A DNA stretch of 57,693 nucleotides from the IMG/VR virus record IMGVR_UViG_3300025030_001169, positions 1 to 57,693 of that record, one strand, 5' to 3'. The stretch is from a virus. Below the pieces are notes generated by a model. It was not told the DNA's origin, searched no databases, and worked only from the letters and a program-made list of their open reading frames with translations. A program made the translations under genes and the position numbers. Positions 27,000-45,342 of this stretch are shown piece by piece; position 1 is the stretch's first letter, and each line of letters opens with the position of its first letter.

Positions 27000-27027
27000 A
27001 GACGTTGAAAGACGTCTTTCTTTTATT
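27000..27027 (+). terminator. rho-independent terminator
   Basis: AGACGT / ACGTCT six-base-pair stem (27000-27005 with 27012-27017), loop TGAAAG, followed by TTCTTTTATTTT. It closes the 25.5-27.0 kb unit and separates it from the sugar island. Confidence 0.7.
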
Positions 27028-27046
27028 TTATAAAAACAAGAAGACT

Positions 27047-27628
27047 ATGAATCGTTCAACAATTATCAATTCTCTTATAAAGAAAAATGGCTACAAGAGC
27101 TATTTAGAGATTGGGTGTCAAAACAATCGTAATTTCAATGTTATTGTTTGTAAAAAGAAGACAGGCGTTGATCCTGTTAAGGGAGGGACAGTTACACTAC
27201 CAAGTGATATCTTTTTCAGAGGAGCGATAAAAGGAAAAGAAAAATTTGATATCATCTTTATTGATGGGGATCACACGAAAGAGCAAGTGGCGAAGGATAT
27301 TAAAAATTCTTTGTCGTGTTTGAGCCCAGGCGGGACGATTGTGGTTCATGATTTGAATCCATCAACATTTGAAATGCAAGCAGTTCCAAGGATTCAGAAG
27401 GCATGGACAGGAAATGGTTGGGAAGCTTGGGTTAAAATGAGAATGGAAAACAAAAATCTTTTGATGTGCTGTTTTGAGGGAGATTATGGTGTAGGTATTA
27501 TTCAGAAGGGAAGTCAGGATCTTCTCATTGCAAAGAGCGCAATCAACTTTAATAATTTTGTAAAGAACAAGAAAAAATGGATGAATATGATTTCTTGGGA
27601 AGAAGTCCAGGAGATCTTTTTTAAGTAA
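27047..27628 (+). CDS. class I SAM methyltransferase (Methyltransf_24 type)
   Basis: Predicted SAM-dependent methyltransferase of the sugar/cephalosporin-hydroxylase-like group. Motif I region is SYLEIGCQNNRNF, then FDIIFIDGDHTKEQV as the acidic motif with IDGDH, then LSPGGTIVVHDLNP. 193 residues from the ATG at 27047; an upstream TTG would start inside the terminator. A second copy of the same family is at 30628. Both are in the glycosyltransferase cluster, so O-methylation of a glycan is a reasonable guess. Confidence 0.75.
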   Translation: MNRSTIINSLIKKNGYKSYLEIGCQNNRNFNVIVCKKKTGVDPVKGGTVTLPSDIFFRGAIKGKEKFDIIFIDGDHTKEQVAKDIKNSLSCLSPGGTIVVHDLNPSTFEMQAVPRIQKAWTGNGWEAWVKMRMENKNLLMCCFEGDYGVGIIQKGSQDLLIAKSAINFNNFVKNKKKWMNMISWEEVQEIFFK

Positions 27629-27636
27629 ATGAAATT

Positions 27637-28332
27637 GTGAATAAGGATATTGTTGTCTTTAGTTGTATATTCGGAAATTATGATACCTTAAAAGAACCTC
27701 TGTATGTAAATACAGGGGTCTCTTTTGTTCTTTTTACAGATAATCCAAACATAAAGAGTAATACTTGGAAGATTATTTTAGTTGATTTAAAGTATTTGGG
27801 AGGGGATCCTCAAAGAGTAGCCAGAAGGATCAAAACAAATCCACATTTGTTTCTTCAAAAGAACCATAAAATAAGCGTTTGGGTTGATTCCAATTACCAT
27901 ATCAGGATTAGAGATATCAAGAATTTTTGCAATTTATCTTTAACAAATAATGATGTGGCGATGTATAAGCATCCAAGGAGAAATTGTTTATATAAGGAAA
28001 TTGATACTTGTATTAATTCAAAATTAGATAAACCAGAAATCTTGTTAGCTCAAAAGAATAAGTATTTGAAGGTAAAATTCCCGTGCGAGAATGGTTTATA
28101 TCATACTGCTGTAGTTATTCGTAGAAATAATACGAAAGTCAATAAGATAAATGAAGAGTGGTGGGAGGAAATAAAGAGATTCAGTCGAAGAGATCAAATT
28201 TCTTTACCTTATATATTTTGGAGAAACGGTATAGTTCCAAATATTGTTCCATCTGAATTTGGAGAGACGTTATATAGAACAGATTATTTTTTCAGATTTA
28301 AGCATAATCGTCAAAGAACTCGGTATGAATAA
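27637..28332 (+). CDS. DUF616-type glycosyltransferase-like protein
   Basis: 231 residues, GTG start at 27637 (a nearby ATG gives only three codons). The layout matches DUF616 (TOD1/MUCI70-like predicted GT): VFSCIFGNYDTLKEP, a VLFTDNP segment, GGDPQRVARRIKTNPHLF, then ISVWVDSN carrying the acidic pair of a GT-A-like site. Probably transfers a sugar to a surface or virion glycan. The stop overlaps the next gene. Confidence 0.7.
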   Translation: MNKDIVVFSCIFGNYDTLKEPLYVNTGVSFVLFTDNPNIKSNTWKIILVDLKYLGGDPQRVARRIKTNPHLFLQKNHKISVWVDSNYHIRIRDIKNFCNLSLTNNDVAMYKHPRRNCLYKEIDTCINSKLDKPEILLAQKNKYLKVKFPCENGLYHTAVVIRRNNTKVNKINEEWWEEIKRFSRRDQISLPYIFWRNGIVPNIVPSEFGETLYRTDYFFRFKHNRQRTRYE

Positions 28333-29170
28333 GCGAGGAGTCGTAGTCAAAGAAATGAAACCTGTTTTTGGGCCAATAGCGGATGCCATAAAGAAGACAG
28401 GAATAGATATGATGGACTTTTCTGAGGTTGAAAAAATCAAGGATTATGATTATTTGATTGTGTTTTACAATAAGTTATTCCCAGCATTAGAGACAAGGGC
28501 AAAAGTGGGATGGTGGATGAATGATTTGAATTCTCCAAGTAAAGTCGGAACAGGAATTAATTGGGGATTTGATTATATATTTCTTTGTAACATGGAATTC
28601 TTTGAGAGTTATAAGCAAGTGTTTGAGAGACCAGTATTTTATATGCCGCAATGCGGATTAGATAGTGATAATATTAGTTGCAGAGATATTAATTGGGAAG
28701 TTTTATTTATTGGAAGTGTCGCTCCACATAGATATAGAAATAATAGGAAAGAAATATTAGAAGGGATTGGAAAATCATTTTTTCTTAAAGTTATTAGTGA
28801 GGAACGAACCTCTGTGGATCAAAACATACTCTATAGAAACACGAAATATAATTTAAGCATTAGTTCACCATTAAATACAACAACGAGTAATCGTTTGTTT
28901 AATATATTGGCTTCTGGTGGATTCGCATTGGTATCGTATTTCCCAGGATTAGAGAAATTGTTTAAGAATCATCAACATTTAGTGTGGTTTAAGAAGTCAA
29001 AAGAAGCAATAAGGTGGATAAATTATTATGATAACAATCCTATTAAATACAGTAGAATTAAGAGATTAGGACATTTGCAATATTTGGAGAAACATACTGC
29101 TAAACATAGATTGGAGAATATGTTTGATATAATGGAAGGAAAAGAAACTAAATTTAGAGGATGGTTATGA
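28325..29170 (+). CDS. CgeB-like glycosyltransferase (GT-B)
   Basis: 281 residues from the ATG at 28325. The C-terminal half carries the Glyco_trans_1_2/CgeB signature: KYNLSISSPLNTTTSNRLF, then NILASGGFALVSYFPGLEKLF, and a terminal HLQYLEKHTAKHR helix. The N-terminal half is a Rossmann-like part (WWMNDLNSPS, FLCNMEFF). Expected to use a nucleotide sugar; acceptor unknown. It overlaps the genes on both sides and belongs to the sugar island. Confidence 0.75.
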   Translation: MNKRGVVVKEMKPVFGPIADAIKKTGIDMMDFSEVEKIKDYDYLIVFYNKLFPALETRAKVGWWMNDLNSPSKVGTGINWGFDYIFLCNMEFFESYKQVFERPVFYMPQCGLDSDNISCRDINWEVLFIGSVAPHRYRNNRKEILEGIGKSFFLKVISEERTSVDQNILYRNTKYNLSISSPLNTTTSNRLFNILASGGFALVSYFPGLEKLFKNHQHLVWFKKSKEAIRWINYYDNNPIKYSRIKRLGHLQYLEKHTAKHRLENMFDIMEGKETKFRGWL

Positions 29171-29925
29171 GAGATATAACATTATTATTTTATCCAGAAC
29201 CACTCAAGAAAGTTCCTCTTTCAAGAGTGTATAGAATATGTAAAGAATATGGGATTAATTTTCATAATGATTCTAAACTACCATATGATTTACATATATT
29301 TTGGAGTTACACAAAATGTAGAATTATTCCAGATGGATTTACTTTAAATGCAAAAGATTGTATAAATAAGGGGTGTTGGGATGTTGGGAAGGAGAGAGTT
29401 AATGATATTTTTAATGATATTAGAATTGATCCTACAATATTTAAAGGAATTTGTGTTGAGAAATTGGATCTTCAAGGTCGTCATGGCAGTCATCATTTGA
29501 TAGAATGTCCTGCGAAGGAAAGAGAGGGATATATTTATCAGAAATATATTGAAAATAAGGAAGGAGATTTGTTTTACAAATATAGAATATATTATGCAGA
29601 TGGTATAAATTATATTCTTAAAAGTTATAAGCCAAATCCTTTTGGGTCTGAATGTGTGAGACATGAGTTGATAGATAAAAATCAATTGTTTACAATAGAA
29701 CAAGAACAAGATTTTCATAAGAAGTGTAAAGAGTTTGGTTTTGATTTTGGGGAAATTGATGCTATGGTAGATAAAGGCAAGCTGATAATTATAGATGTTA
29801 ATAATGTAGTTGGAGGAGGATTTGTTTGGGGATTAACTGGGACGCAATTACATAAAGATATTGATTATACATTCATTAAGTTTTTGGAGAAGAGGATAAA
29901 TGATAAGACAAGCGAGATTTGCTAA
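29161..29925 (+). CDS. ATP-grasp-like protein
   Basis: 254 residues. The C-terminal part has the metal-binding end of an ATP-grasp fold: FDFGEIDAMVDKGKL, then IIIDVNNVVGGG, with Glu/Asp/Asn in the usual E-x-D...D-x-N order. Before it lie a YIYQKYIENKEGD strand and a YRIYYADG strand, like the nucleotide-binding part. ATP-grasp enzymes join carboxylates to amines or thiols, and in glycan islands may add an amino acid. The first 90 residues show no known domain. Starts within the end of the previous gene. Confidence 0.5.
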   Translation: MVMRDITLLFYPEPLKKVPLSRVYRICKEYGINFHNDSKLPYDLHIFWSYTKCRIIPDGFTLNAKDCINKGCWDVGKERVNDIFNDIRIDPTIFKGICVEKLDLQGRHGSHHLIECPAKEREGYIYQKYIENKEGDLFYKYRIYYADGINYILKSYKPNPFGSECVRHELIDKNQLFTIEQEQDFHKKCKEFGFDFGEIDAMVDKGKLIIIDVNNVVGGGFVWGLTGTQLHKDIDYTFIKFLEKRINDKTSEIC

Positions 29926-30631
29926 ATCAATAAGGTTTTTTAAGGAAGGATTTTTGAATCGTTGGGGATTAACTGATTATTCTAATAATCAAGAATCATG
30001 CATATTTGTAGGAATATATCGTTCAGAAGATGTTGATGTTGTTAATAATCATAAAGGATTTAAGTTAATTTGGAATACAGGAAGAATTAGAGATTGTTTT
30101 AAAAATATTGATCCCATTAATGTTGTTGTAATGGAAAATACTATAGATTGTGAGTTAATAAAGGGATTGTATAAAATAAAGCGTGCGAACATTGAAATAA
30201 AGGATTTCTCTTTGTTTAAACTGAGTGAGTTGGGGAATAAGGTTTATTGCTATTTAGGCAATGCGAAGGGAAAATTTGTAATGGGTTTTGATTTAATGAA
30301 AGAAGTTGAAAAAGAAATTAAATATGAGATAATACAAGGATTTCAGGGAAACACTATAGAATTTGTTAGAGATAATATTTATAATGAATGTTTTGTAAAT
30401 TTGAAACCAAATTTGACTGGAGGAATTACATCAGCGGTGGAATTAGCATTAATGGGAAGAAGGACAATTTCAAATACAATTGCTCCCTTTTGTATGGGAT
30501 ATAAAAGTGTTGAGGATATTGTGCGAATCATTAATGAGGAAAGTAAAAAAATTGGGATTATACAAGCATCAAAATTAGGAAATTATTTTGATACAGGAGA
30601 AGAGTGGAGAGAAGAAAAATTTTGGTTATGA
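29900..30631 (+). CDS. GT-B glycosyltransferase-like protein
   Basis: 243 residues. A late segment LTGGITSAVELALMGRRTISN resembles the donor-binding end of GT4-type enzymes, where a conserved acidic residue sits before ALMG(R/K). Upstream strands (SCIFVGIYRS, KLIWNTGR) suit a Rossmann domain. No closer family is evident. It overlaps the neighbour genes by 26 and 4 bases. Confidence 0.5.
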   Translation: MIRQARFAKSIRFFKEGFLNRWGLTDYSNNQESCIFVGIYRSEDVDVVNNHKGFKLIWNTGRIRDCFKNIDPINVVVMENTIDCELIKGLYKIKRANIEIKDFSLFKLSELGNKVYCYLGNAKGKFVMGFDLMKEVEKEIKYEIIQGFQGNTIEFVRDNIYNECFVNLKPNLTGGITSAVELALMGRRTISNTIAPFCMGYKSVEDIVRIINEESKKIGIIQASKLGNYFDTGEEWREEKFWL

Positions 30632-31257
30632 AAAGAAGAAATATTATCAATGATTTAATTGTTAAACTCAATTTTGAAAATTATCTTGAATTGGGGATAA
30701 GGACAAAAGAGACATTCAATAGCGTTATTTGTAAAAATAGAATGTCTGTTGATTGTGAAAATAAGTGGGAACCAACTTACTGTTATACAATTGATGATTT
30801 CTTTAAATTGTTAGATGGGGGATTTTTAGATATTGATAAGAATTATAAATGGGATTTGATTTTTATTGATGCTTGTCATAAAGCAGAATATGTGTATAGA
30901 GATACATTGAATTCTGTAAGACATTTGAATGATAAGGGAATATTGGTCTTGCATGATGTATTTCCAGTTAAATGGGAATTTACAATAGAGGATGATCAGA
31001 ACGGAACAGCTTGGAAGGTTGTTCCTTATATTTTGAAATATCATCCTGAATTAAATGTTTGCGTTATTCCAGAGAGAAATGGCGGATGTGGAATAGTTAC
31101 TAAAAATTTAGGAAAGTTAAGAGAGAATTGTTTAGATAAGGATTTTAATGTGTTTTATGATTTTTATTTAATGGATGTGAATAGAAAAAAATCGCAAAAT
31201 ATAATTGTATATTCTGATTTGATTGATTGGATTAAACAACCTTATTATAATAAATGA
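30628..31257 (+). CDS. class I SAM methyltransferase (second Methyltransf_24 type)
   Basis: 209 residues from the ATG at 30628 (ATGA overlap). Same fold as the protein at 27047. NYLELGIRTKETFNSVIC starts motif I, KWDLIFIDACHKAEYV is the acidic motif, and LNDKGILVLHDVFPV is the following strand. The shared N-terminal motif (NDLIVKLNFENYLELG versus NSLIKKNGYKSYLEIG) shows they are paralogues. An Ala-Cys replaces Gly-Asp in the D-A/G motif. Likely acts on a sugar or lipid-linked glycan. Confidence 0.72.
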   Translation: MKRRNIINDLIVKLNFENYLELGIRTKETFNSVICKNRMSVDCENKWEPTYCYTIDDFFKLLDGGFLDIDKNYKWDLIFIDACHKAEYVYRDTLNSVRHLNDKGILVLHDVFPVKWEFTIEDDQNGTAWKVVPYILKYHPELNVCVIPERNGGCGIVTKNLGKLRENCLDKDFNVFYDFYLMDVNRKKSQNIIVYSDLIDWIKQPYYNK

Positions 31258-31258
31258 T

Positions 31259-31855
31259 ATGGCAATCATTAAGTTTATCAAAGATAAAGAAGAACAAATT
31301 CTAACTGAATTAGGATTTCAATATAATGGTTTGAGATTGTGTGAATTGGGAAATCAGAGTTTTGGTGAGAGACCAGCTAAATTAATGTATGGTTTATTGG
31401 GTGCCTATCATGTATCAATAGATATTAATGGGAGAGATGGAGCATTTCCATTTAATTTATCAGAAGAGTTACCAGAATATATGGGAGGACATTTTAATGT
31501 AATTACAAATTATAGTACAACGGAACATGTTAGCAGTCAAATTGAGGTGTTTAAGAATATTCATAATCTTTGTAGAGTTGGGGGAATAATGATTCATGGA
31601 GTTCCTCTTATAAATAATTGGGCGGGACACGGGAGATATTATTATACATTAGAATTTTTCAATAAATTAGCGAATTTTAATGGGTATAAAATTTATGTTT
31701 TAGAGATTTTAGATAAGGATTTTTATGCGGCTCCAAAGAATTTAGTCTATTCAGTGTTAATTAAAGAAGTAAATAATGATTTTAAAGGTTTTGATTTTAA
31801 AGATATATTTGATTCTGGCAATGTAAGTCGTACGCAAAATTATGCTAAAAGATGA
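31259..31855 (+). CDS. class I SAM methyltransferase
   Basis: 198 residues from the ATG at 31259. RLCELGNQSFGER is the SAM-binding glycine region, HVSIDINGRDGA holds the acidic ribose contact, and FNVITNYSTTEHV then CRVGGIMIHGVPL are the later motifs. It differs from the two neighbours of the Methyltransf_24 group. Substrate unknown; part of the sugar island. Confidence 0.65.
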   Translation: MAIIKFIKDKEEQILTELGFQYNGLRLCELGNQSFGERPAKLMYGLLGAYHVSIDINGRDGAFPFNLSEELPEYMGGHFNVITNYSTTEHVSSQIEVFKNIHNLCRVGGIMIHGVPLINNWAGHGRYYYTLEFFNKLANFNGYKIYVLEILDKDFYAAPKNLVYSVLIKEVNNDFKGFDFKDIFDSGNVSRTQNYAKR

Positions 31856-32625
31856 AAGACTTTGTAAAAGAATATTGGGATAAAAATGCTCAAAAATTTG
31901 GTGGTTCTCATTGGGCTTCCTGGGGCGACAATTTTATGATAGAATTGGAGATTGATATTATTGCAAAGTATCTTAAGGACGGAGATTATGTTTTAGATGT
32001 AGGTTGCGGTAATGGTTATTCAACATTTGAGCAAGTTAAGAGACATAGTCTTTCTATTGAGGGAATTGATTATTCTTTGTTTATGATTAAGGAAGCCATT
32101 AAAAAAAGAAATGAAATAAAAAAGGAAAGAACTATATTATTCTTTGAGGGAGATGTTAGGAAACTTGACTATAAGGATGAATTGTTTGATAAGACATATG
32201 TTACGAGAGTATTGATTAATCTTCAAACTTGGGAAGAACAAATTCAAGGAATTAAAGAATGTCTTAGGGTCACTAAACCAGGAGGAACAATCATTCTTTT
32301 AGAAGCATTTTGGGAACCTCTTCAAAAATTGAATGCAATAAGATTAATTTGTGGTCTTCAACCTTTAGTGGAACATGATTTTAATAGATATTTGAAAGAA
32401 TCAAAGTTAATAGAATTTTTAGAGAGGGAAGGGATTAAATATAAAAAAGAAGAATTTAGTTCAGTTTATTACTTTGGAAGTCGTGTGTTAAGAGAACTTG
32501 TCACTGATTTTAAATCATTTGAAGGTTATGATAATCCAATAAATGAGGAGTTTTGTAAATTAGCAAAGAAATATAATGGCGGGGGAGTTGGAATTCAAAT
32601 TGCATATATACTTTATAAATTATGA
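31852..32625 (+). CDS. SAM methyltransferase (Methyltransf_11 type)
   Basis: 257 residues. Clear motif I VLDVGCGNGYSTFE at about residue 46, IEGIDYS acidic motif, FEGDVRKLDYKDELFDKTY, and VTKPGGTIILLEAFW. These define a UbiE/Methyltransf_11-type small-molecule methyltransferase. Substrate unknown; place suggests sugar or lipid methylation. ATGA overlaps at both ends. Confidence 0.85.
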   Translation: MKDFVKEYWDKNAQKFGGSHWASWGDNFMIELEIDIIAKYLKDGDYVLDVGCGNGYSTFEQVKRHSLSIEGIDYSLFMIKEAIKKRNEIKKERTILFFEGDVRKLDYKDELFDKTYVTRVLINLQTWEEQIQGIKECLRVTKPGGTIILLEAFWEPLQKLNAIRLICGLQPLVEHDFNRYLKESKLIEFLEREGIKYKKEEFSSVYYFGSRVLRELVTDFKSFEGYDNPINEEFCKLAKKYNGGGVGIQIAYILYKL

Positions 32626-33260
32626 GACATAATCCATACAAAATAGTTCAAATGTTTGAAGAAGAGATAGCAAATTATACTGGCGCTCCCTATGCGGTAT
32701 CTGTAGACAGTTGTACTAATGCATTATTCCTTTGTTGTAGATTTTTAAATGTTAAATGGGTTACAATACCAAGTAAGACATATCTTTCAGTTCCGCAATC
32801 TATTATGCACGCTGGGGGAAGTGTTATTTTTGATAAAAGAGAAATAACAAATAATTGGAAGGGAATATACCAATTGTTACCATATGGTATATGGGATGCT
32901 GCTAAGAGATTTACATTTAATATGTATTCTCAAAATACTGCACCGGGAGACTTTATGTGTTTATCATTTCATATGAAAAAGCATTTGAAGATAGGCAAAG
33001 GGGGTATGATTCTTACAGATAACGAGAAAGCTGTTGCGTGGTTTAAGAAGGCGAGATACGAAGGAAGAAGTCAAAAGATGTATCATGAAGATGATATTGA
33101 TATGTTAGGATGGAATATGTATATGACTCCTCAACAAGCAGCTCATGGTTTAGCATTAATGCAAAATATTGAAAAATATAATGATGACTTGGGTGAAAAC
33201 AATGGTTATAGAGATCTTACAGAATTTACAATATTTAAAAATAATCAAACAATCGAATGA
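32622..33260 (+). CDS. short DegT/DnrJ/EryC1-type sugar aminotransferase
   Basis: PLP-dependent enzyme related to sugar aminotransferases. FEEEIANYTGAPYAVSVDS with CTNALFLCC is the N-terminal signature, IPSKTYLSVPQSIMHAGG follows, then DAAKRF, and SFHMKKHLKIGKGG holds the candidate PLP lysine. At 212 residues it has only about half the ~370 residues of family members: the C-terminal substrate/dimer domain is missing. It could be a minimal phage version or a truncated, inactive copy. It overlaps both neighbours, which suggests it is still expressed. Confidence 0.72.
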   Translation: MRHNPYKIVQMFEEEIANYTGAPYAVSVDSCTNALFLCCRFLNVKWVTIPSKTYLSVPQSIMHAGGSVIFDKREITNNWKGIYQLLPYGIWDAAKRFTFNMYSQNTAPGDFMCLSFHMKKHLKIGKGGMILTDNEKAVAWFKKARYEGRSQKMYHEDDIDMLGWNMYMTPQQAAHGLALMQNIEKYNDDLGENNGYRDLTEFTIFKNNQTIE

Positions 33261-34000
33261 TTGAATTAACAGTTGCTCTTCCATTATTTAATAGCGGAAA
33301 AATCGCTTGGTTGGCATTAGAGGGATTATGCAATCAGAGAGATATTGATTTTGAATGGGAATTAGTGATTGCGGAAGAACAAAATGATTTAATGTTTGGA
33401 AAAGAGGGGATTTTAGAATATAAAGAAAGATTGGAGAGGATTGGATGTGTAAATATAACATATTTATATTTAATAAGGTGGATTTCTTTGGGAGAGAAAT
33501 GGAGATTGATAGCGATTAATACTAATGCAAATTCAAAAGCATTTCTTTTACAGGCTTCTGATTGTTATTCTCAACCATTTAGATTAAAGGCAGTATATCA
33601 AGCGATTGTTAAGAGTGATTTTGATTGGTATAAAAGTAATCAGGGATTATTTTATCATTTAAAAACAAAGAAAAATATTTTGTTTAGTGATGTAGAGAAC
33701 ATACAAAGAGGTGGATTAAATATGGCCACATTGACAAAATATGTTAAAAATTTACCATTAGAACAAAGAAGAGCAGTGGTCGATGGTTGGTTATATAAGT
33801 ATTGTAATCCCAAAAAGGTTTTTGTAGATATAGCGGATTATTGGGAATTGGGGGTTGATACTCATGGATTAAACCAAATTTCCTTAAAAAGAGATAAGTT
33901 TTTTAGGAATCCCACATTTCCGTTTGTAGAAACAGAATTAAATTGTAGAACATTATTGCCAGAATATATAATTCAGAAGTTTGATGATTTATTATTTTAA
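33257..34000 (+). CDS. GT2-like glycosyltransferase
   Basis: 247 residues. The N-terminus (ELTVALPLFNSGKIAWLALEGL) and FEWELVIAEEQ match the start of family 2 glycosyltransferases. A later LLQASDCYSQPFR replaces the DxD region, with Asp then Cys, so metal binding is uncertain. It overlaps the following GT-like gene; the two may be halves of one activity, since GT2 proteins normally hold both parts. Confidence 0.62.
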   Translation: MIELTVALPLFNSGKIAWLALEGLCNQRDIDFEWELVIAEEQNDLMFGKEGILEYKERLERIGCVNITYLYLIRWISLGEKWRLIAINTNANSKAFLLQASDCYSQPFRLKAVYQAIVKSDFDWYKSNQGLFYHLKTKKNILFSDVENIQRGGLNMATLTKYVKNLPLEQRRAVVDGWLYKYCNPKKVFVDIADYWELGVDTHGLNQISLKRDKFFRNPTFPFVETELNCRTLLPEYIIQKFDDLLF

Positions 34001-34517
34001 GCCATTTGATTTGGACAAGAAGTTGGGGCGAGCATATAATGAATATATGCGAATGCTTCCAAGTGATGAAGATTGGGGTTGTCTTTTAGATGGTGATACT
34101 ATGTTCCTTACAGAGGATTATGGAAAACAAATTCAAGAAATTGTAATGATGTACCCAAATACAGGGTTATTTACTTGTTTAACAAATAGGGTTGGTAGAA
34201 GGCAACAATGTTATAAAGGAGTTATGTCGGAGAATTGGGATATCAAACATCATTATCAAATCGCTCAAGAGGTTCAAAAATTTGCTCGTCACAACGTGTC
34301 TGAGATACATACTATAATCAGTGGGCACTTATTATTAGTTAAAAAAAAAACATGGCGAGAAGTAGGAGGATTTGTTGAGGAAGGCATTTTAAAAGTAGAT
34401 AATAAATTTAGTTGGGGGATTTTACAAGCGAGGAAGAAGATACTAATAATGAATGGCGTTTATATTTTTCACCGTTACAGAATTAATGGAATTAAATTTA
34501 GAGAACATTTAAAATGA
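33984..34517 (+). CDS. glycosyltransferase-like protein (GT-A)
   Basis: 177 residues from the ATG at 33984. LGRAYNEYMRMLPSDEDW, then CLLDGDTMFLTEDYG with a DGD motif (a DxD metal site), then FTCLTNRVGRRQQCY. This is the pattern of small GT-A enzymes in phage and capsule clusters. A late ISGHLLLVKKKTWREVGGF motif corresponds to the acceptor-side region of GT2. Overlaps the preceding gene by 17 bases. Confidence 0.65.
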   Translation: MIYYFKPFDLDKKLGRAYNEYMRMLPSDEDWGCLLDGDTMFLTEDYGKQIQEIVMMYPNTGLFTCLTNRVGRRQQCYKGVMSENWDIKHHYQIAQEVQKFARHNVSEIHTIISGHLLLVKKKTWREVGGFVEEGILKVDNKFSWGILQARKKILIMNGVYIFHRYRINGIKFREHLK

Positions 34518-34551
34518 GTATAGATCGTACAATATTGTATATAGTCAAGCC

Positions 34552-34695
34552 ATGAATGCGGTTTTTCGATTGGGAGAATATTTGAATAGGTTGATAAATA
34601 GTGAAGAAAGTAAGAAGACAATGAGTGAGGAAAAATTTAATAAAATAAGAGAATCTTTAGAATTGTCTAAGAAGATAATGAATAATTTAAAGTAA
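34552..34695 (+). CDS. hypothetical 47-residue helical protein
   Basis: ATG at 34552, with a TAATG overlap to the next gene. Product MNAVFRLGEYLNRL and then MSEEKFNKIRESLELSKKIMN is a helix with heptad-like spacing. It is preceded by a 13-codon frame at 34514 (MSIDRTILYIVKP) that may be the stump of a lost glycosyltransferase gene. Tight junctions support translation. Confidence 0.5.
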   Translation: MNAVFRLGEYLNRLINSEESKKTMSEEKFNKIRESLELSKKIMNNLK

Positions 34696-35432
34696 TGCAA
34701 GAAATTGATGTTGTATATCCGGTTGGTATTGGGAGCATCTGGAAAGACAATGAAATGCGTTATTCCTTGAGGAGTTTGGAAAAGAACTTGATAGGATTAA
34801 GAAATGTATTTATTGTCGGCCATCTCCCTCAGTTCATTCAAAGAGTTATTCACATTCCAGCAGCGGATATATACAGAGAGAACAAAGATGCAAATTTAAT
34901 AATGAAGATTTTGATGGCTTGTGATCATCCATCTTTATCAGAAAATTTTGTAAGACTCAGTGATGATCAATTAGTTTTGAAACCAATTTGTGAGGAATGT
35001 TTTGAGAATTGGTGGTATGAGGATTTAAAAGATAGACATTTTGGTCGTTTAAATAATTGGGGAAAGAGACTTAAGAATACTTATAATTTGTTAAAACAAC
35101 AAGGTCTCCCAACAAAGAATTATGATTCACACATTCCAATGATTTATAATAAGAAGAGTTTTGTAGATATAATGAATCGTTATCCTTGGAATAAAGATGG
35201 AAGCGGGGAAGGATTTACAATAAATACATTATATTTTAATAATATTTATAAAGGCGAGAGAGTCAAAGAAGGAATAAGATTTAATGTTGAAACACCATTA
35301 GATAAAGCCACTCTTCAGCGAGGATTTGAAAAAAATATGTTTTTAGGATATGATGAAAGAGGAAGAAATAATGAGTTGGAAGAAGTAATTCAAGAGGCGT
35401 TTCTTCAAAAAAGCAAATATGAAATTGATTAA
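34695..35432 (+). CDS. Stealth-like capsular polysaccharide phosphotransferase
   Basis: 245 residues. Motifs resemble the conserved regions of the Stealth family (hexose-1-phosphate transferases): DVVYPVGIGSIWKDNEMRYS with LRSLEKNL and VFIVGHLP, then IIMKILMACDH-like and LSDDQLVLK, and SHIPMIYNKKSF. Such enzymes link sugar phosphates in capsules and glycans. It is the last gene of the sugar island. Confidence 0.65.
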   Translation: MQEIDVVYPVGIGSIWKDNEMRYSLRSLEKNLIGLRNVFIVGHLPQFIQRVIHIPAADIYRENKDANLIMKILMACDHPSLSENFVRLSDDQLVLKPICEECFENWWYEDLKDRHFGRLNNWGKRLKNTYNLLKQQGLPTKNYDSHIPMIYNKKSFVDIMNRYPWNKDGSGEGFTINTLYFNNIYKGERVKEGIRFNVETPLDKATLQRGFEKNMFLGYDERGRNNELEEVIQEAFLQKSKYEID

Positions 35433-37375: not shown

Positions 37376-38032
37376 ATGAAAAATTTAATTTTAGTTGCTT
37401 TTGCCATATTATTAATGGCGAGTTGTAAAAAAGAAGATGTGTCTCCCGATCCGCAAAATGGGATTGATACAGTTTCTCCAATAATTACAATAATTGGTGA
37501 TAATCCATTAATTGTAAAACAGTTTGATGCTTACAATGATCCTGGAGCGATAGCAATAGATGCTATTGATGGAGAATGTATTGTGGATATTTCAGGACAT
37601 GTAAATATTGATTCTGCAAAGGAATATGTTGTAATTTATTCTGCAAGCGATTTGAGTGGAAATAGCAAAAACATATCAAGAACAGTAATTGTTTCAGGAG
37701 CCAAATATTTATCAGGAAGTTATATTGTAAGCGATTATCAAAGTGGAATATTAGTAATGTCTTACTATGATTCTATTCGGGGAGATTTAAACAACCATAA
37801 CAAGATATGGTTTAAGAAATTTGCAGGATATCAAAACGCTGTAATATATGGCGACATAGTTGGGAGTAAAATAGCAATACCGTCACAAGTGGTTCTTTGT
37901 GGTAGTCCTCAAATTCAACGAACATTTCAAGGATATGGGTCTTATGTTAAAGATTCAGTTAATTTTAATATAAATTATATAGAAACAACTAATGGGAATT
38001 CAACATCTGGAATATTGAAATTTAAGAAATAA
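37376..38032 (+). CDS. lipoprotein with DUF5011-like Ig domain
   Basis: 218 residues. The N-terminus is a lipoprotein signal: MKNLILVAFAILLMASCKK, with the lipobox LMAS followed by Cys17. Next comes an Ig-like domain (about 30-105) of the DUF5011 type: PIITIIGDNPLIVKQFDAY, NDPGAIAIDAIDGE, then VVIYSASDLSGNSKN. The last ~100 residues form a separate beta-rich domain (IWFKKFAGYQNAVIYGD). This would be displayed on the host envelope during infection, where it might block adsorption of other phages; that is inference. The leader ends aattgttatg. Confidence 0.8.
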   Translation: MKNLILVAFAILLMASCKKEDVSPDPQNGIDTVSPIITIIGDNPLIVKQFDAYNDPGAIAIDAIDGECIVDISGHVNIDSAKEYVVIYSASDLSGNSKNISRTVIVSGAKYLSGSYIVSDYQSGILVMSYYDSIRGDLNNHNKIWFKKFAGYQNAVIYGDIVGSKIAIPSQVVLCGSPQIQRTFQGYGSYVKDSVNFNINYIETTNGNSTSGILKFKK

Positions 38033-39385: not shown

Positions 39386-40000
39386 GTGGATAAGACACTA
39401 ATCATTTGGTTAATTGGGGGAAACTGTACTGGTAAAACAACGCAAGCCAGAGAGATACACAAATATTTTCAAAAATTGCAAACACATTCAACAAAGGAAA
39501 GAGTAATTGAGGAAAGTAATTTTTGTTATACCAGTATGTCTGACATATCTTGCAATGCGGGAAATCTTTTGAAAAGTCAATGTTCAGGAACAGATACACT
39601 TTCTACAAAACAACAAATTGAGGATTGCATCAATTATACAAAAGACCGTTATCCAATTGTTGTAATAGAAGGTATAATGGCAACCGGACAGTGGATTCAC
39701 TTTTTAAAACAGCAAGACACCATACTATTTACAGTGTTTCTTAATATGACGCCAGAAATCAATTTTAAGATGGTTTCTCAGCGTCGTGCCGCAAAGAAAG
39801 GTATTGCCCCAACTGATATACAGATCAGTCAGAAAACAAAGGAAAATATGGCTTCTAAATTACGAGGATTCTTTCTTTTATATAATAGGATGCAACCGTT
39901 ATCTGATTTTGCAATGAAGATTGACGTTGATGGGAAATCAATAAAGAAAATATTTGGCGTGATTGAGAGACAACTACAAACGATTTTACTTTCAGTCTGA
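39386..40000 (+). CDS. P-loop kinase (candidate DNA base or nucleotide kinase)
   Basis: 204 residues, GTG start immediately after the ligase stop. A P-loop GGNCTGKT (residues 11-18) follows the first strand. PIVVIEGIMATG is a likely Walker B region, and MVSQRRAAKKGI a lid-like basic helix. P-loop kinases of this size phosphorylate 5-hydroxymethyl-dU in DNA in some thymine-hypermodifying phages. The ADDT-like and helical-kinase-like genes 0.4-5 kb downstream make that reading attractive. It could instead be a deoxynucleotide or polynucleotide kinase serving the ligase next door. Confidence 0.55.
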   Translation: MDKTLIIWLIGGNCTGKTTQAREIHKYFQKLQTHSTKERVIEESNFCYTSMSDISCNAGNLLKSQCSGTDTLSTKQQIEDCINYTKDRYPIVVIEGIMATGQWIHFLKQQDTILFTVFLNMTPEINFKMVSQRRAAKKGIAPTDIQISQKTKENMASKLRGFFLLYNRMQPLSDFAMKIDVDGKSIKKIFGVIERQLQTILLSV

Positions 40001-40012
40001 AATCTTATTTCC

Positions 40013-40028
40013 AAAGTTATTATAAATA
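40013..40028 (+). promoter_or_regulatory. possible promoter: AAAGTTATTATAAATA
   Basis: Contains TATAAATA, the core word of T4 late promoters, joined to the AAAGTTAT variant seen elsewhere. It lies in the gap before the gene at 40137. With a gp55-like sigma predicted at 9218 this is suggestive, but AT-rich words recur by chance. Confidence 0.3.
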
Positions 40029-40087
40029 CATTTATTTAGTGTAAGAAGTGGGCGAAGTATTAACCAATAAAAGTAAATTAAGGAACA

Positions 40088-40096
40088 CAGTTATTA
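40088..40096 (+). promoter_or_regulatory. putative promoter motif
   Basis: ACACAGTTATTA (40086-40096 area), matching the string at 35434-35444, about 40 bases before the ATG at 40137. The gene it would drive ends in a strong terminator, forming a one-gene unit. Confidence 0.35.
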
Positions 40097-40136
40097 CCAA
40101 TAGTACTGTAAGTAAAAATAGTTTGTTTAACTTAAA

Positions 40137-40361
40137 ATGGAGATTAAAAGAATGGCTACAACAAAATTAGTTGCGTACTGCATGAAGACCAAACAGAAGA
40201 ATGTTCCTTTTGTTGGAAAACCCAAAATCATTAAGACCAGTCGTGGTTCGTATATGGTTCAGGGCGTTGATAAGGCAGGGAACAAAATGGCCACAACCGT
40301 ATCTGAAGCAGTCGCAATGGCTGCAATCAAAGAAGGTGTTGCTGTAAAGAACTGGAAATAG
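40137..40361 (+). CDS. small basic protein, DUF5679-like without zinc cysteines
   Basis: 74 residues from the ATG at 40137; the ATG at 40152 (MATTKLVAYC) is equally possible. The AYCMKTKQKNVPF start and a later GNKMATTVSEAVAM segment recall small DUF5679-type proteins. Only one Cys remains. Surrounded by a promoter-like motif and a strong terminator, so probably expressed alone and strongly. Perhaps DNA-binding because of its charge, but this is a guess. Confidence 0.55.
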   Translation: MEIKRMATTKLVAYCMKTKQKNVPFVGKPKIIKTSRGSYMVQGVDKAGNKMATTVSEAVAMAAIKEGVAVKNWK

Positions 40362-40387
40362 TCCGGTTGTGAGTGAATAGTTGTTAC

Positions 40388-40423
40388 GAAGTCCCATTGA
40401 AAAGTGGGACTTCTTATTTTCTT
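40388..40423 (+). terminator. strong rho-independent terminator
   Basis: Perfect nine-base-pair stem GAAGTCCCA/TGGGACTTC (40388-40396 with 40405-40413), loop TTGAAAAG, then TTATTTTCTT. Ends the unit of the small basic protein. Confidence 0.85.
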
Positions 40424-40427
40424 CAGA

Positions 40428-41393
40428 ATGAAAGACTATAGATTATCAGAAAACAGGTGGGAAGGTTGTAAACAATACTTTAAAGAGTATGTTGAGAGCA
40501 ATGATATAAATGTTGAGGAAATAGCAATAAAGAATTTAGTAGGATTGATTGGTTTATCCAGAGAACAAATGCTCTGGTATTCGTTTTTGTATTCAATGAC
40601 TCACAATGTCTTTTCAGCTTGGTCAATTCTTTATGAATTTCCAGAATGGAATAACATAAATATGACCAAATTTGAAAGATACTGGAAGCAAGAAAAAGTT
40701 AATTTGGAATTTACAAGCGATCGTAGGAGAGTAAAGAGTTATGATCTTCCAGGAAAAATAATAGAATCATACAGAGGGTTGATGCGAGAAGGACAAGAAG
40801 AAACACTTGGGAAGTATATTGTTGAAGACGCTAATAAGAGTTATTTGAATCTGATGAAATTTTGCGGGCAATTTTATTATTACGGGAGATATTCCATTGA
40901 TTTGTATTTAGGGAAGGCAACACACTTATTGGGATTGAACGTTGCGGGAGAAACAATTAATTTCAAAGAAGCAGAGTCAATTCGCAACGGGATGTTATAT
41001 GCTCTTAATATGAACGAATATATAACAATGCATCACCAAAAACCAATTAAAGTTCTTTCTCCAGCAGATTATGAATTATTAGATTCAAAGTTAAAGAAGT
41101 TAGTGCGAGAAGTGAATCAAGAAATGGGAAGTGAATTCTCCATTTGGGATATAGGAAGCACGCTGTGTCCATATAAAAAGTTGTTTTGGGGGGATAGGTA
41201 TGTAGGATATTATATTGACCGGCAACTTGGAGAATTAAGGCGAGCAGAAGAGAAACTGAAGAATATACCGTTTGATATGTTTTGGGAATTCAGAAAGAAC
41301 TATATGAATAATAATTATTTGGGCGAGTTGAACGGGTGGAGTGATATACGGAAGCCATTACAAAAGAAATTTCAACAAACAGGAGAATTATGA
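40428..41393 (+). CDS. ADDT-like protein (predicted amino acid:DNA transferase)
   Basis: 321 residues from the ATG at 40428; a GTG at 40404 would lie inside the terminator stem. The sequence resembles the ADDT domain described computationally in thymine-hypermodifying phages. An NRWEGCKQYFKEYVE start, REQMLWYSFLYSMTHNVFSA, an internal FYYYGRYSIDLYL, IRNGMLYALNM, then STLCPYKKLF and YVGYYIDRQ. The ADDT group is proposed to attach amino acids or amines to activated 5-hydroxymethyl-pyrimidine in DNA. A PIG-L deacetylase follows with an ATGA overlap. The family assignment is from memory, by eye, and needs a profile search. Confidence 0.55.
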   Translation: MKDYRLSENRWEGCKQYFKEYVESNDINVEEIAIKNLVGLIGLSREQMLWYSFLYSMTHNVFSAWSILYEFPEWNNINMTKFERYWKQEKVNLEFTSDRRRVKSYDLPGKIIESYRGLMREGQEETLGKYIVEDANKSYLNLMKFCGQFYYYGRYSIDLYLGKATHLLGLNVAGETINFKEAESIRNGMLYALNMNEYITMHHQKPIKVLSPADYELLDSKLKKLVREVNQEMGSEFSIWDIGSTLCPYKKLFWGDRYVGYYIDRQLGELRRAEEKLKNIPFDMFWEFRKNYMNNNYLGELNGWSDIRKPLQKKFQQTGEL

Positions 41394-42031
41394 AAATATT
41401 GATCGTACAACCGCATTCTGACGACGCATTATTGAGTTGTTATCACTTGTTTGATTCTACCAATAAAATAGTCATTCTTACAGTTGAAGACGATCAAAAA
41501 AGAATTAGTGAGGACAAACAATTACAGGATATATTTAATGATGTTGTGATTGACAATTGTAAAGATACAGTTGATGGGACATATTCAGATTATTGGAAGA
41601 AACATAAAATATTTAATTGGCGAGAAGTTTTGAAATTATATATTAAAAAATACGATTATGGGGAGTACAAACATTTGAAGTATCAATTGATAGATAAAAT
41701 CACTAAATGCAAAAACAAAGGATTCACAATATTTGTTCCTTTTGGAGCGGGGCACCCATTCCATTTGATAATTCACAAGATTTGCTATAATTTAGCTGAC
41801 TATTTCTACAGAGACTTTCCACATTCTTATAAGACACAGAGAGGGTTGAGATACTTTGAAGAGCAAAAGAACAACTATAGACTTGTATCAAGTACTGATG
41901 TAACCCCATTTCAAGCCGAGAAGATAAGAATTTTTGGCGAGGTCTATAAAAGTCAACGAGCGTTTCAATTTTATGAAAAGAATAATTTAGAAAAATGTTA
42001 TCCAGAAGAAATTTATGAAAGGATTAAATGA
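41390..42031 (+). CDS. PIG-L-type deacetylase
   Basis: 213 residues. The N-terminal VQPHSDDALLS (His9, Asp11-Asp12) is the zinc motif of the PIG-L/LmbE family, and GAGHPFH (His122, His125) gives the later histidine. These enzymes remove acetyl groups from N-acetyl sugars. Here it could unmask an amine on a sugar or side chain joined to the DNA base, or work on the glycan island products. It overlaps both neighbours (ATGA). Confidence 0.78.
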   Translation: MKILIVQPHSDDALLSCYHLFDSTNKIVILTVEDDQKRISEDKQLQDIFNDVVIDNCKDTVDGTYSDYWKKHKIFNWREVLKLYIKKYDYGEYKHLKYQLIDKITKCKNKGFTIFVPFGAGHPFHLIIHKICYNLADYFYRDFPHSYKTQRGLRYFEEQKNNYRLVSSTDVTPFQAEKIRIFGEVYKSQRAFQFYEKNNLEKCYPEEIYERIK

Positions 42032-42315
42032 TGGAAAATTGGTGTACTTGTAATATGATGGGAGAAGGAGGAAGTATGTCTCCCAGATTATGGATTTGTG
42101 AAAAACATGGTAAAACAGGAATGGTTGCATTTTATAGTCTTCAAAAGAAAATAGTTGAGGATCAAAATATATCTATGGATGAGGCATGGGATATTATGAA
42201 TAATATTTTTAAAAAGAAGAATGAGGAATTTAAAGCGCAAGGAAAAATATATTTTGACGAAGATTATTTATTTGATGATATTTGTAAGGAATTAAATTAT
42301 GAAAAAATTAGTTGA
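42028..42315 (+). CDS. hypothetical protein
   Basis: 95 residues. N-terminal WCTCNMMGEG and CEKHG suggest a small Cys/His zinc site; the rest is helical and acidic (EFKAQGKIYFDEDY). Start is ATGATG at 42028; it overlaps the radical SAM gene by 17 bases. Not recognised; may be an accessory of the modification cluster. Confidence 0.55.
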   Translation: MMENWCTCNMMGEGGSMSPRLWICEKHGKTGMVAFYSLQKKIVEDQNISMDEAWDIMNNIFKKKNEEFKAQGKIYFDEDYLFDDICKELNYEKIS

Positions 42316-43240
42316 TGTTCGAACAGAGAATGTAAGACTATTTAATACTCTTTCTATTGAGACTGGTTCAAGATGTAATAGGAAGTGTAAATTTTGTTTT
42401 TGTGGTCACTATGAGCGACCGGATGTATTGCTTGAAATGGATATACTTGTAAGAGTTTGTAAAGAATTAGGGAGTATTAATTATAATGGCTTGGTAGAGT
42501 TGCAAGGTTTTGATGAACCGATGAGAGACAAAAGAATAGAAAATATCATTAAATTATTCAAAAAATTTGTTCCCAAAAGTTCTTTGTTAATAGCAACCAA
42601 TGGGGATTATATTAAGAATAAACAAGATATTAAAAAATTGTTCAATGCAGGGCTGAATCAATTGGTTATAGATTGTTATGATCCCAATAAAGATCGTATG
42701 TTAAAAATGGTTGAATATTGCTTTGATTTGAAAGAAAATGATTTTAAAGATTTGAATTTTGGAGGAAAAGGAATGTATAGCTCTAAAAAATCAAAAACAA
42801 TTGATGTTATTGATAAAAGCCATATGCTTGAAAGAGACAACAGAAGTTTGTTTAATTATGATCACAAAGATAAAAAATATAATGATTGTCTTGCAAACAA
42901 TGCCGGAGCATTATTGGGAAAAGTGACTGGTTTGGGGGAACCAAATCAAAATAAGTATTGTGTGTTACCTTTCAGGAAAGCTACAATAGCTTATACAGGT
43001 ATGTTAACACTTTGTTGCCAACATGCTACAGGAGAAGTTAATTTTGGTGATTTAAGAAAAAATACTTTAATTGAATGTTGGAACAGTGACATCGCTAATG
43101 AGTATAGATTGTTTTTACAAAATAATATGAGAAAAAATCTTAAAGGTTGTGAGAATTGTAGTTTCTTTGGGGGATTTTATCCACATATGATTACCAAAGT
43201 TACTTTTGGAGAAGAAATGGATGAGAAATTATTATCATGA
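42299..43240 (+). CDS. radical SAM/SPASM enzyme
   Basis: 313 residues. The radical SAM cluster site is CNRKCKFC (Cys26, Cys30, Cys33). A Gly/Glu segment (LQGFDEP) and an ATNGDYI strand match the TIM barrel. The C-terminus has a SPASM-like cysteine set: CVLPF, LTLCCQHATGE, LIECWNS and GCENCSFFGG. SPASM enzymes modify peptides, sugars or other small molecules by radical chemistry. Between PIG-L, a GT and a helical kinase, a role in building the DNA base side chain is plausible but unproven. A glycan-tailoring role is the alternative. Confidence 0.82.
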   Translation: MKKLVDVRTENVRLFNTLSIETGSRCNRKCKFCFCGHYERPDVLLEMDILVRVCKELGSINYNGLVELQGFDEPMRDKRIENIIKLFKKFVPKSSLLIATNGDYIKNKQDIKKLFNAGLNQLVIDCYDPNKDRMLKMVEYCFDLKENDFKDLNFGGKGMYSSKKSKTIDVIDKSHMLERDNRSLFNYDHKDKKYNDCLANNAGALLGKVTGLGEPNQNKYCVLPFRKATIAYTGMLTLCCQHATGEVNFGDLRKNTLIECWNSDIANEYRLFLQNNMRKNLKGCENCSFFGGFYPHMITKVTFGEEMDEKLLS

Positions 43241-44067
43241 AGATTTTAATTGCAGTCCCAAGTAAGAATCGTTGGAGAGATAATCAAATTCAGCGAAAAA
43301 CATTAGCGTGGCTTCAATACACAAAATATGACTACGCAATCTTTGTAGAACCACAAGATTTACAAAATTATGTTAACAATATCCCTCAGAATATGGAGAT
43401 TAGACATCAGACTTTTGTTAATATAAAAGAGAATAATAAGGGAATGGGATATTGCAAGTTGATGATTCAGAAATATGCTCAAGAAAACAAATACGACTAT
43501 ATATTTAAGGCTGATGATGACATAATAGGTTGGAGAGACCCAGCGAATCGGGGATTGGGCCATAATGCTCCAAAGAGATCCAAAGAGTATCGTTGTAAAG
43601 AGATATTTGATCCAATGATTGACAAGTCTTTGGAGATGTTTAAAGAACTTGGAGAATATGTTGGGGGAGTCACCCTTCAGTATGGGAATGAAATGCGAGA
43701 CTATGATCCTGAAAAACCATGGATAGGAATAAACAAAAGATTACAATGTTGTTATATAGTGAGAACGGATTTGTTATGTCAGAGAGATGTAGAACATTTT
43801 AGTTTATTTGAAGATTTTATGACTTTTGTTCATTTGATTAAAAGTGGTTATAAGACCATAACATATGGATTAACAGGAATAGAATATGATGGAATTGCTA
43901 ATAGAGAAGGTGGTTTTCAAGATGTTGAAAGAATTAAAGGGAGTCTCCATACGATGATTATGGCGAAGAAAATATATCCTGATTTAATATGGAAGAAAGT
44001 GAATAAGCCATGGAAGTTTGAACCGGATTTTGCAAAAACAAAATTTATAGAAAGGATAAAAATATGA
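43237..44067 (+). CDS. GT-A glycosyltransferase, possibly DNA-base specific
   Basis: 276 residues. KILIAVPSKNRWRDN and a FVEPQDLQNY strand open a GT-A fold; KADDDIIGWRD at residues 91-100 gives the metal DDD motif. Next comes GGVTLQYGNEMRDYD and an acceptor-side FEDFMTFVHLI. The general pattern (SKNR, then a triple-Asp) recalls glycosyltransferases of the TET/JBP-associated and GREB1 groups that modify 5-hydroxymethyl bases. I cannot separate that from a generic GT2. It overlaps the radical SAM gene by an ATGA and belongs to the same unit. Confidence 0.6.
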   Translation: MKILIAVPSKNRWRDNQIQRKTLAWLQYTKYDYAIFVEPQDLQNYVNNIPQNMEIRHQTFVNIKENNKGMGYCKLMIQKYAQENKYDYIFKADDDIIGWRDPANRGLGHNAPKRSKEYRCKEIFDPMIDKSLEMFKELGEYVGGVTLQYGNEMRDYDPEKPWIGINKRLQCCYIVRTDLLCQRDVEHFSLFEDFMTFVHLIKSGYKTITYGLTGIEYDGIANREGGFQDVERIKGSLHTMIMAKKIYPDLIWKKVNKPWKFEPDFAKTKFIERIKI

Positions 44068-44417
44068 AACAAATTTTAATGCCAACCATATTTGTAAAGT
44101 ATGGTGAGACAGGAACAATAAAAGATTTTCTTGAGAATAAAGAAGATAAGGAAATTTATGGGGAGGATGTTAAAATAGTTTGCGAATTGTTAGAAGCAAA
44201 ACCAGAGGAAATAATATTGACGACTTCTGATGAAGATTTTAAATTCACAAAACAAGAACTTTATTTGATGGCGAAAGAATTAAAAAGTGATAGCGGAGAA
44301 ACATTGTATGAATATAATGGTTTGAAGTTTTGTTATCAATATGTAGAAGGAGGATTGGAAGTTTATCAATTTGTAAAAAATAATTTGAAAGAATATGAGA
44401 TCACCAGCAGTAAGTGA
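44064..44417 (+). CDS. hypothetical protein
   Basis: 117 residues, acidic, not recognised. Beta start (ILMPTIFVKYGETGTI) followed by helices (FTKQELYLMAKELKS). Overlaps the GT gene (ATGA) and the next gene by 23 bases. Probably co-expressed with the modification genes. Confidence 0.5.
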   Translation: MKQILMPTIFVKYGETGTIKDFLENKEDKEIYGEDVKIVCELLEAKPEEIILTTSDEDFKFTKQELYLMAKELKSDSGETLYEYNGLKFCYQYVEGGLEVYQFVKNNLKEYEITSSK

Positions 44418-45342
44418 CGCAAATGAACATTTATTACCAGATCAGAAAATAGATGTTGTTGAGGAAAATTTAAGGTTATTTTGGTATTGGATCTACGAAA
44501 GGCATAGCATATATCATCGTAGATTTATATTGAAACAGAAGCCACCCTGGACAAAAGATCCATTGTTGAGGGATTTTAAATTTACAAATGCTTATAGAGA
44601 ATTAGATAGAGTGTCGCAATGGGTCAAGAACAATATTATTAATACAGAAGACACCAAATTCAACAAACTTTTTACACTAATATCTTTCAAGTTGTTTAAT
44701 AAGATTGAGACATTTGAGGAGATTGGCCTACAGCATTATGATACATTTAACCCAATAGAGTTCGAGAAAGGTCTTAAGAGGATTGTAGATAGAGGAGGAA
44801 ATCCATTTACGGATGCTTATTTAGTCAATTCGATGGCGTTCCAAGGAATGAGAAAATACACTGCCTATTCAAGACATGTGATCCCTTTTGTCCATAAAGA
44901 AATGAAAGCATTTTATCGTACAATTCTAACAGCAAAAGAACCTGAAGAGATTATCAAACATTTCTCAGTAATAAAGGGAGTTAGTAATTTTGTGGCGTAT
45001 GAATTGTATTGCGATTTAGATTATTTTGATCCGCCAATAATGAAATTTGATCAGAATGATTATGTAAATACTGGACCAGGAGCAGCAACTGGGGTCGCTT
45101 GGATATTTCCTTCTCGGGCATCTTCTTACAAAGAATGTGAAAAAGTCATTTATGAGTTAAAAAACAAACAAAAGTATTATTTCCAGATATTCGGTTTCAG
45201 CGACTTCCCATATCTCAACAACAAATACGGTAAATTATCTCTAAGAGAAATTGAGCACTCCCTTTGTGAGTTCCAAAAATATAAAAAAATGCAATTGGGG
45301 TTTGGAAAAAGAAGACAGAAATTTATTCCACATATTTATTAA
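44395..45342 (+). CDS. 5-hmdU DNA kinase helical-domain-like protein
   Basis: 315 residues. LRLFWYWIYERHSIYHRRF, then PPWTKDPLLRDFKFTN and AYRELDRVSQWV, followed by MRKYTAYSRHVI and SNFVAYELYCDL. This fits the all-helical family first predicted as alpha-glutamyl/putrescinyl-thymine pyrophosphorylases and now grouped as the helical domain of 5-hydroxymethyl-dU DNA kinases. These act on 5-hmdU already in DNA in thymine-hypermodifying phages. A free-standing P-loop kinase (39386) and an ADDT-like gene (40428) lie in the same cluster. A hairpin (45343-45359) directly follows the stop. The family call is by eye. Confidence 0.7.
   Translation: MRSPAVSDANEHLLPDQKIDVVEENLRLFWYWIYERHSIYHRRFILKQKPPWTKDPLLRDFKFTNAYRELDRVSQWVKNNIINTEDTKFNKLFTLISFKLFNKIETFEEIGLQHYDTFNPIEFEKGLKRIVDRGGNPFTDAYLVNSMAFQGMRKYTAYSRHVIPFVHKEMKAFYRTILTAKEPEEIIKHFSVIKGVSNFVAYELYCDLDYFDPPIMKFDQNDYVNTGPGAATGVAWIFPSRASSYKECEKVIYELKNKQKYYFQIFGFSDFPYLNNKYGKLSLREIEHSLCEFQKYKKMQLGFGKRRQKFIPHIY

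Follow-up and report, generated by a model that had tools for sequence, protein, structure and literature searches.

What does a virus make of thymine when genes for amino-acid transfer to DNA, for glycosylation and for radical chemistry stand in one block? The question is raised by positions 39,386 to 45,342 of the IMG/VR record IMGVR_UViG_3300025030_001169, from an uncultured virus (57.7 kb, no terminal repeats); the whole stretch of 57,693 nucleotides (nt) is referred to here as the window. Hypermodification of thymine of some kind is very probable. Our preferred answer, given somewhat less than an even chance, is a post-replicative hypermodification of 5-hydroxymethyldeoxyuridine (5-hmdU) that joins an amino-acid branch and a sugar branch; an amino sugar as the product is proposed more tentatively. 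The genome in the record is incomplete, since its 5' end falls inside a DNA polymerase gene; the terminase lies at 23235 and the portal at 45464.

All six open reading frames (ORFs) named in an earlier, sequence-only reading of the block are real and lie on the plus strand, and their family or fold calls hold with the corrections given below (coordinates in Table 1). Two small ORFs, encoding proteins of 95 and 117 residues, have to be added to the set. From ADDT to HMUDK_hel, consecutive genes overlap by 4, 4, 17, 4, 4 and 23 nt (at 41390, 42028, 42299, 43237, 44064 and 44395, respectively). A terminator-like hairpin splits the P-loop gene and a 74-residue ORF from the ADDT operon and, because it directly precedes the ADDT start, these two may form a separate unit; such hairpins number 4 in the window versus 3.2 expected in shuffled sequences, which is weak evidence by itself.

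The last gene of the block was read as a helical 5-hmdU kinase-like protein, and it matches Pfam HMUDK_hel with an E value of 1.1e-57 (195.9 bits, cut-off 25); 453 phage records match it. The P-loop protein, which starts directly after the stop codon of a DNA ligase gene, yields only generic Pfam matches. Its reading as a kinase is supported by the Walker A motif and by the alignment with residues 34–192 of phrog_800 (E 4.9e-7), while the HMUDK_hel protein aligns with residues 292–470 of the same family. As both ends of phrog_800 are matched, and as Pseudomonas phage M6 likewise has separate genes, the two proteins are, by sequence comparison, probably two parts of one kinase. The P-loop protein is 42 and 38% identical to its counterparts in two ADDT/HMUDK_hel loci (L129 and L137, respectively), and a tblastn search with the window kinase against cultured phages returned no match. 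The 5-hmdU kinase phosphorylates 5-hmdU in DNA, and further modification then follows (PMC6449724).

The ADDT protein passes the Pfam ADDT cut-off (E 2e-6; 28.2 bits, cut-off 26.2; profile positions 20–227 of 232) and matches phrog_3271 with an E value of 2e-24. The proteins at 40428 and 44395 thus belong to the ADDT and HMUDK_hel families, not to unrelated ones. The 343 phage records that match ADDT are mostly ViI-like Ackermannviridae. Enzymes of this family attach an amino acid. The start at 40428 is preferred over the mechanical GTG start at 40404, because the hairpin covers 40388–40413 and the proteins of relatives start at the equivalent residue (‘MKDYRTQDY’ in L137). Scans of viral contigs with the single ADDT or radical S-adenosylmethionine (SAM) enzyme sequence of the window found nothing, and alignment-based scans succeeded. 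In three phage relatives (G001–G003) ADDT is absent according to a profile run; the genome search with PF18724 misses even the ADDT of the window, so its negatives are weak.

The glycosyltransferase of the GT-A type with a DDD motif could be assigned to the TAGT family (PF20691; E 3.8e-10, 40.5 bits, cut-off 27.5), over positions 3–107 of the 205-position profile only; it also matches phrog_842 (E 5e-15). The addition of sugars to modified bases is ascribed to TAGT enzymes, for example in T6 (PMC13390438), and a glycosyltransferase beside HMUDK_hel and a hydroxymethylase is already on record (PMC9599517).

The deacetylase at 41390 keeps its PIG-L assignment by fold and motifs, but fails the Pfam PF02585 cut-off (E 0.25; 12.3 bits versus 28.2). 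This profile is matched by 26 of the 29 members of its family (the best E value among the 29 relatives is 6e-6), and the family profile (A6) matches the N-acetylglucosamine (GlcNAc) deacetylase Dbv21 at E 8.7e-8. In the fold comparison of the AlphaFold model (pLDDT 84), ranks 1–18 are all taken by the LmbE/PIG-L family with Z scores of 11 to 16, versus 8.7 or less for unrelated folds; Dbv21 is the best match (Z 16.3), and the teicoplanin enzyme Orf2 is also among the best. Foldseek alone gave nothing at E 0.001 or better and no LmbE enzyme in its best 50, and VIA-align, applied to the Foldseek candidates, ranked LmbE enzymes on top. The motifs PHxDD, RxxE, HPxH and K..SQ are kept, with P8, H9, D11, D12, H122, P123 and H125 invariant in the 29 sequences. 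A tblastn search against cultured phages gave no match to this protein. Single ORFs with an N-terminal PIG-L and a C-terminal TAGT domain (TAGT by Pfam, PIG-L by alignment) are found in L070 (7992–9497) and L072 (7995–9518), and such fusions occur also in L068 and L090. The PIG-L fold, the fusion with TAGT and the similarity to enzymes deacetylating attached GlcNAc suggest that a GlcNAc-like sugar would be converted to an amine.

Both the Radical_SAM and the SPASM domains of the enzyme at 42299 score above the Pfam cut-offs. The dehydrogenase BtrN is its sole strong sequence match among solved structures (E 7e-17, collinear across both domains) and its closest fold (Z 24.8, root-mean-square deviation 2.6, 236 residues; next best Z 15.0). 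In 23 relatives the cysteines C26, C30 and C33 (CxxxCxxC), C239, C284 and C287 are invariant and C221 is nearly so. Only C221, C239, C284 and C287 align with auxiliary-cluster cysteines, and one cluster is expected, in a twitch domain like that of BtrN; the full SPASM set for two auxiliary clusters is absent from the window enzyme. The earlier call of a radical SAM/SPASM enzyme is thus right in its first half and has to be narrowed to the twitch type in its second. For the related phage enzymes of G003, L049 and L059, BtrN is again the only significant match among solved structures. By analogy with BtrN, the window enzyme could oxidise a hydroxyl of a sugar. The only match in the cultured phage collection was MT835743, a fecal contig that was rejected as a phage relative since it looks bacterial (ABC-transporter-like and ATPase-like genes, by eye).

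The search for a dUMP hydroxymethylase, suggested by the sequence-only reading, failed in the window (neither PF00303 nor PF02511 is found in the partial 57.7-kb record) and succeeded in larger relatives. Two phages that share the terminase and portal with the window, G001 (98.7 kb) and G002 (123.9 kb), have a PF00303 protein matching M6 gp058 at 33–36% identity. HMUDK_hel is present in 12 of the 14 PIG-L phage records tested, and all seven longer than 86 kb carry a PF00303 protein; most of these records belong to one phage group, which limits the independence of this association. In L059 and L171, which have PIG-L directly by HMUDK_hel or TAGT, the sequence that was read contains no portal of this group. 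L059 presents the run HMUDK_hel, TAGT, PIG-L, radical SAM, radical SAM, TAGT and hydroxymethylase, and radical SAM adjoins TAGT also in L006, L008, L048, L055, L058 and L061.

A profile survey covered the loci of the relatives, those of HMUDK_hel with some 9 kb of flanking sequence. Of the 70 HMUDK_hel loci left after dereplication, the kinase was detected in 15, ADDT in 10 and TAGT in 25; the loci were selected for similarity to HMUDK_hel, many of them being fragmentary, hence these counts describe a sample, not a census. The window alone combines kinase, ADDT and TAGT, a set that 80 additional loci from bacterial and archaeal genomes all lack. Loci L049 and L050 were considered as repeats of this set and discarded, as their GT-A-like neighbour has no match to TAGT or to any Pfam family. 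Other locus types are kinase–ADDT–HMUDK_hel, radical SAM–TAGT pairs and series of radical SAM, PIG-L and GT4. With HMUDK_hel, TAGT, radical SAM and PIG-L recurring with a thymidylate-synthase-type hydroxymethylase in independent phages, the link to 5-hmdU drawn earlier is strengthened, and the gene combinations of the relatives support a role in DNA modification.

In the pathway that we propose, the part of the genome outside the record would encode a dUMP hydroxymethylase that supplies 5-hmdU. In one branch, the P-loop protein and HMUDK_hel would jointly phosphorylate 5-hmdU, and ADDT would swap the phosphate for an amino acid. In the other, TAGT would add a sugar, either to 5-hmdU or to the amino acid of the first branch. 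The PIG-L-fold enzyme would de-N-acetylate this sugar, and one of the sugar hydroxyls would be oxidised by the BtrN-like enzyme. The order of these steps, the acetylated state of the sugar and the meeting of both branches on the same base we infer. The outcome would likely be a bulky thymine that bears an amine in the form of an amino sugar and blocks the nucleases of the host. The idea of an amino sugar, already raised in the sequence-only reading, gains from a PIG-L fold nearest to deacetylases of glycosidically bound GlcNAc, from the PIG-L–TAGT fusions and from the BtrN-like enzyme, and its product is still put forward as a proposal. An amine is common to the thymidine hypermodifications of M6, ViI and phiW-14; an amino sugar would resemble them in this respect. 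To our knowledge, no class of DNA bases with an amino-sugar-bearing hypermodified thymine is known. That glycosylation, de-N-acetylation and radical SAM oxidation on DNA would yield an aminoglycoside-like amino-sugar thymine, possibly atop the amino acid, we regard as possible but rather doubtful.

Several observations weigh against this pathway, beside the lack of a hydroxymethylase in the partial record. NCBIfam maturase models, for peptides and for metal cofactors, fit the radical SAM sequence about as well as BtrN does, so the type of substrate can be taken as a lead only. A tree places the enzyme with that of L136 on a long branch, apart from the 21 others. Most relatives have PIG-L with a GT4-like gene kilobases downstream of the portal, not beside HMUDK_hel, and there it might modify something else.

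The best-surviving alternative, which we consider unlikely, assumes two separate modifications, an amino acid on some 5-hmdU residues and a tailored sugar on the rest, with HMUDK_hel serving both as a 5-hmdU-DNA-binding partner. The kinase and TAGT are anti-associated among the 70 loci (Fisher p 0.013) and so look like alternative fates of 5-hmdU. Moreover, triads of HMUDK_hel, TAGT and hydroxymethylase occur in many phages where neither kinase nor ADDT was detected. However, the unbroken series of overlaps from ADDT to HMUDK_hel suggests a single product line.

Less likely again is an ordinary amino-acid hypermodification like those of M6 and ViI, in which the radical SAM enzyme would rearrange and the PIG-L protein de-acylate the side chain, TAGT being minor or optional and no amino sugar being made. 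The P-loop kinase accompanies ADDT in all ten ADDT loci (p 8e-9), L049 and L050 combine ADDT, radical SAM, kinase, HMUDK_hel and hydroxymethylase with no recognised TAGT, and the radical SAM enzyme of M6 reportedly acts on an amino-acid side chain. That enzyme, however, has no BLASTP match to the one in the window, whose closest solved relatives, like those of the PIG-L protein, act on sugars or cyclitols; in many phages radical SAM and PIG-L accompany TAGT or GT4 with no ADDT, and the PIG-L–TAGT fusions also speak for a sugar.

It is improbable that TAGT, PIG-L and radical SAM decorate a virion protein or a host surface glycan, leaving only the kinase, ADDT and HMUDK_hel to act on DNA: the PIG-L–GT4 genes of relatives do sit among structural genes downstream of the portal, and the window has a second glycosyltransferase/methyltransferase block (27005–35432), but TAGT is a DNA-glycosylating family that neighbours HMUDK_hel and hydroxymethylase in many phages, and in L059 and L171 PIG-L lies directly by HMUDK_hel or TAGT.

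That second block, dense and on the plus strand, comprises glycosyltransferase-like genes at 27637 and 28244 (and, by eye, 33257 and 33981), four methyltransferases (27005, 30604, 31223 and 31852), a short DegT/PseC-like aminotransferase that lacks its C-terminal part (32622) and, at 34695, a Stealth-like protein. The block could provide a sugar or decorate one, or have nothing to do with DNA. The protein at 25543–26646 has relatives (about 24% identity) that immediately precede HMUDK_hel in L004, L005, G002 and G003, while that of G001 lies close to the terminase; it is part of the terminase-to-portal core of the phage relatives of the window. A dUTPase-like gene (by eye; L136 1205–1660, G003 30283–30729) separates HMUDK_hel from the radical SAM or TAGT gene. 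HMUDK_hel-family genes are also found in bacterial contigs (L186–L251, e.g., Agromyces, Microbacterium, Micropruina and Kocuria), with neither kinase nor ADDT and often convergent with a thymidylate-synthase-type gene; a cellular role of the family is possible. As for the host, the ORF at 37376–38032, just upstream of the ligase, encodes, behind a lipoprotein-like signal, a bacterial surface immunoglobulin-like domain (PF16403) that is frequent in Bacteroidota and thus a hint. A phage-like contig of the same phage group (L172; HMUDK_hel, portal, PIG-L and GT4) was binned in a Sulfuricurvum metagenome-assembled genome. For the 95-residue protein there is no Pfam match and no profile match across the other loci.

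Table 1. Features of the gene block, in window coordinates
Feature	Position	Strand	Basis or remark
P-loop part of 5-hmdU DNA kinase	39386..40000	+	Walker A GGNCTGKT; phrog_800 match
74-residue ORF	40137-40361		between P-loop gene and ADDT
Terminator-like hairpin	40388..40413	+	11-pair stem, T-rich tail
ADDT, amino acid:DNA transferase	40428..41393	+	Pfam ADDT, phrog_3271
PIG-L/LmbE-fold N-deacetylase (predicted)	41390..42031	+	fold, profile, motifs; 4-nt overlap with ADDT
95-residue protein, function not assigned	42028..42315	+	overlaps both flanking genes
BtrN-like radical SAM enzyme (twitch domain)	42299..43240	+	sequence, fold, cysteine set
TAGT-family GT-A glycosyltransferase, DDD motif	43237..44067	+	Pfam TAGT; 4-nt overlap with radical SAM gene
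117-residue protein, function not assigned	44064..44417	+	overlaps both flanking genes; sole match phrog_16091 (E 2.5e-4)
HMUDK_hel, helical part of 5-hmdU DNA kinase / 5-hmdU-DNA-associated protein	44395..45342	+	Pfam HMUDK_hel

In general, the results point to an arm of thymidine hypermodification that would tailor sugars (TAGT, PIG-L and radical SAM) and recurs across many uncultured phages; the phage of the window would unite it with the amino-acid arm, two known routes that are otherwise almost never together. The many phages that pair HMUDK_hel with TAGT and hydroxymethylase, with the kinase undetected, also suggest that HMUDK_hel is a general partner of 5-hmdU-containing DNA, not a kinase part only. 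The cassette offers a short list of enzymes for assaying new DNA chemistry.

Among known systems, M6 (NC_007809 gp051–gp058) and PaMx11 (JQ067087 gp46–gp51) resemble the window in that ADDT, P-loop kinase and HMUDK_hel are encoded separately; a hydroxymethylase gene lies close to the clusters of these two phages. Neither has TAGT over the cut-off or a PIG-L profile match, and the window block in turn is devoid of their pyridoxal-phosphate (PLP), flavin and acetyltransferase genes. M6 differs also by its own PLP enzyme and a larger, unrelated radical SAM protein. The thymidine hypermodification of M6 is said, in work of Lee et al. from 2022, to include the radical SAM step mentioned above; such a step is not new in itself, and the M6 enzyme is a different one. 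The closest cultured source of ADDT, compared for this protein alone, are the Salmonella ViI-like Ackermannviridae (e.g., SFP10), with about 25% identity over 90–96% of the protein. Brevibacterium phage LuckyBarnes and pelagiphages share with the window HMUDK_hel and a TAGT-type glycosyltransferase, and they also have a thymidylate-synthase-type hydroxymethylase (the set is described as hydroxymethylase, aG/PT-PPlase1 and glucosyltransferase; PMC9599517). In LuckyBarnes no radical SAM or PIG-L was seen, and kinase and ADDT were not found, the latter by the insensitive PF18724 search. The nearest solved structures of the window radical SAM and PIG-L proteins, butirosin-type BtrN and the glycopeptide deacetylases Dbv21 and Orf2, act on antibiotics, not DNA; the analogy is functional only. 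The thymine hypermodification of Bacillus phage SP-15 includes sugars (PMC5977210), but the cluster reported for it is of a teichuronic-acid-like type, with CDP-glycerol and uridylyl transferases and a UDP-glucose dehydrogenase, unlike the set in the window. Hypermodification of thymidine based on 5-hmdU is already known from such phages; what is new is the presence of the amino-acid and the sugar-tailoring arms in one cassette.

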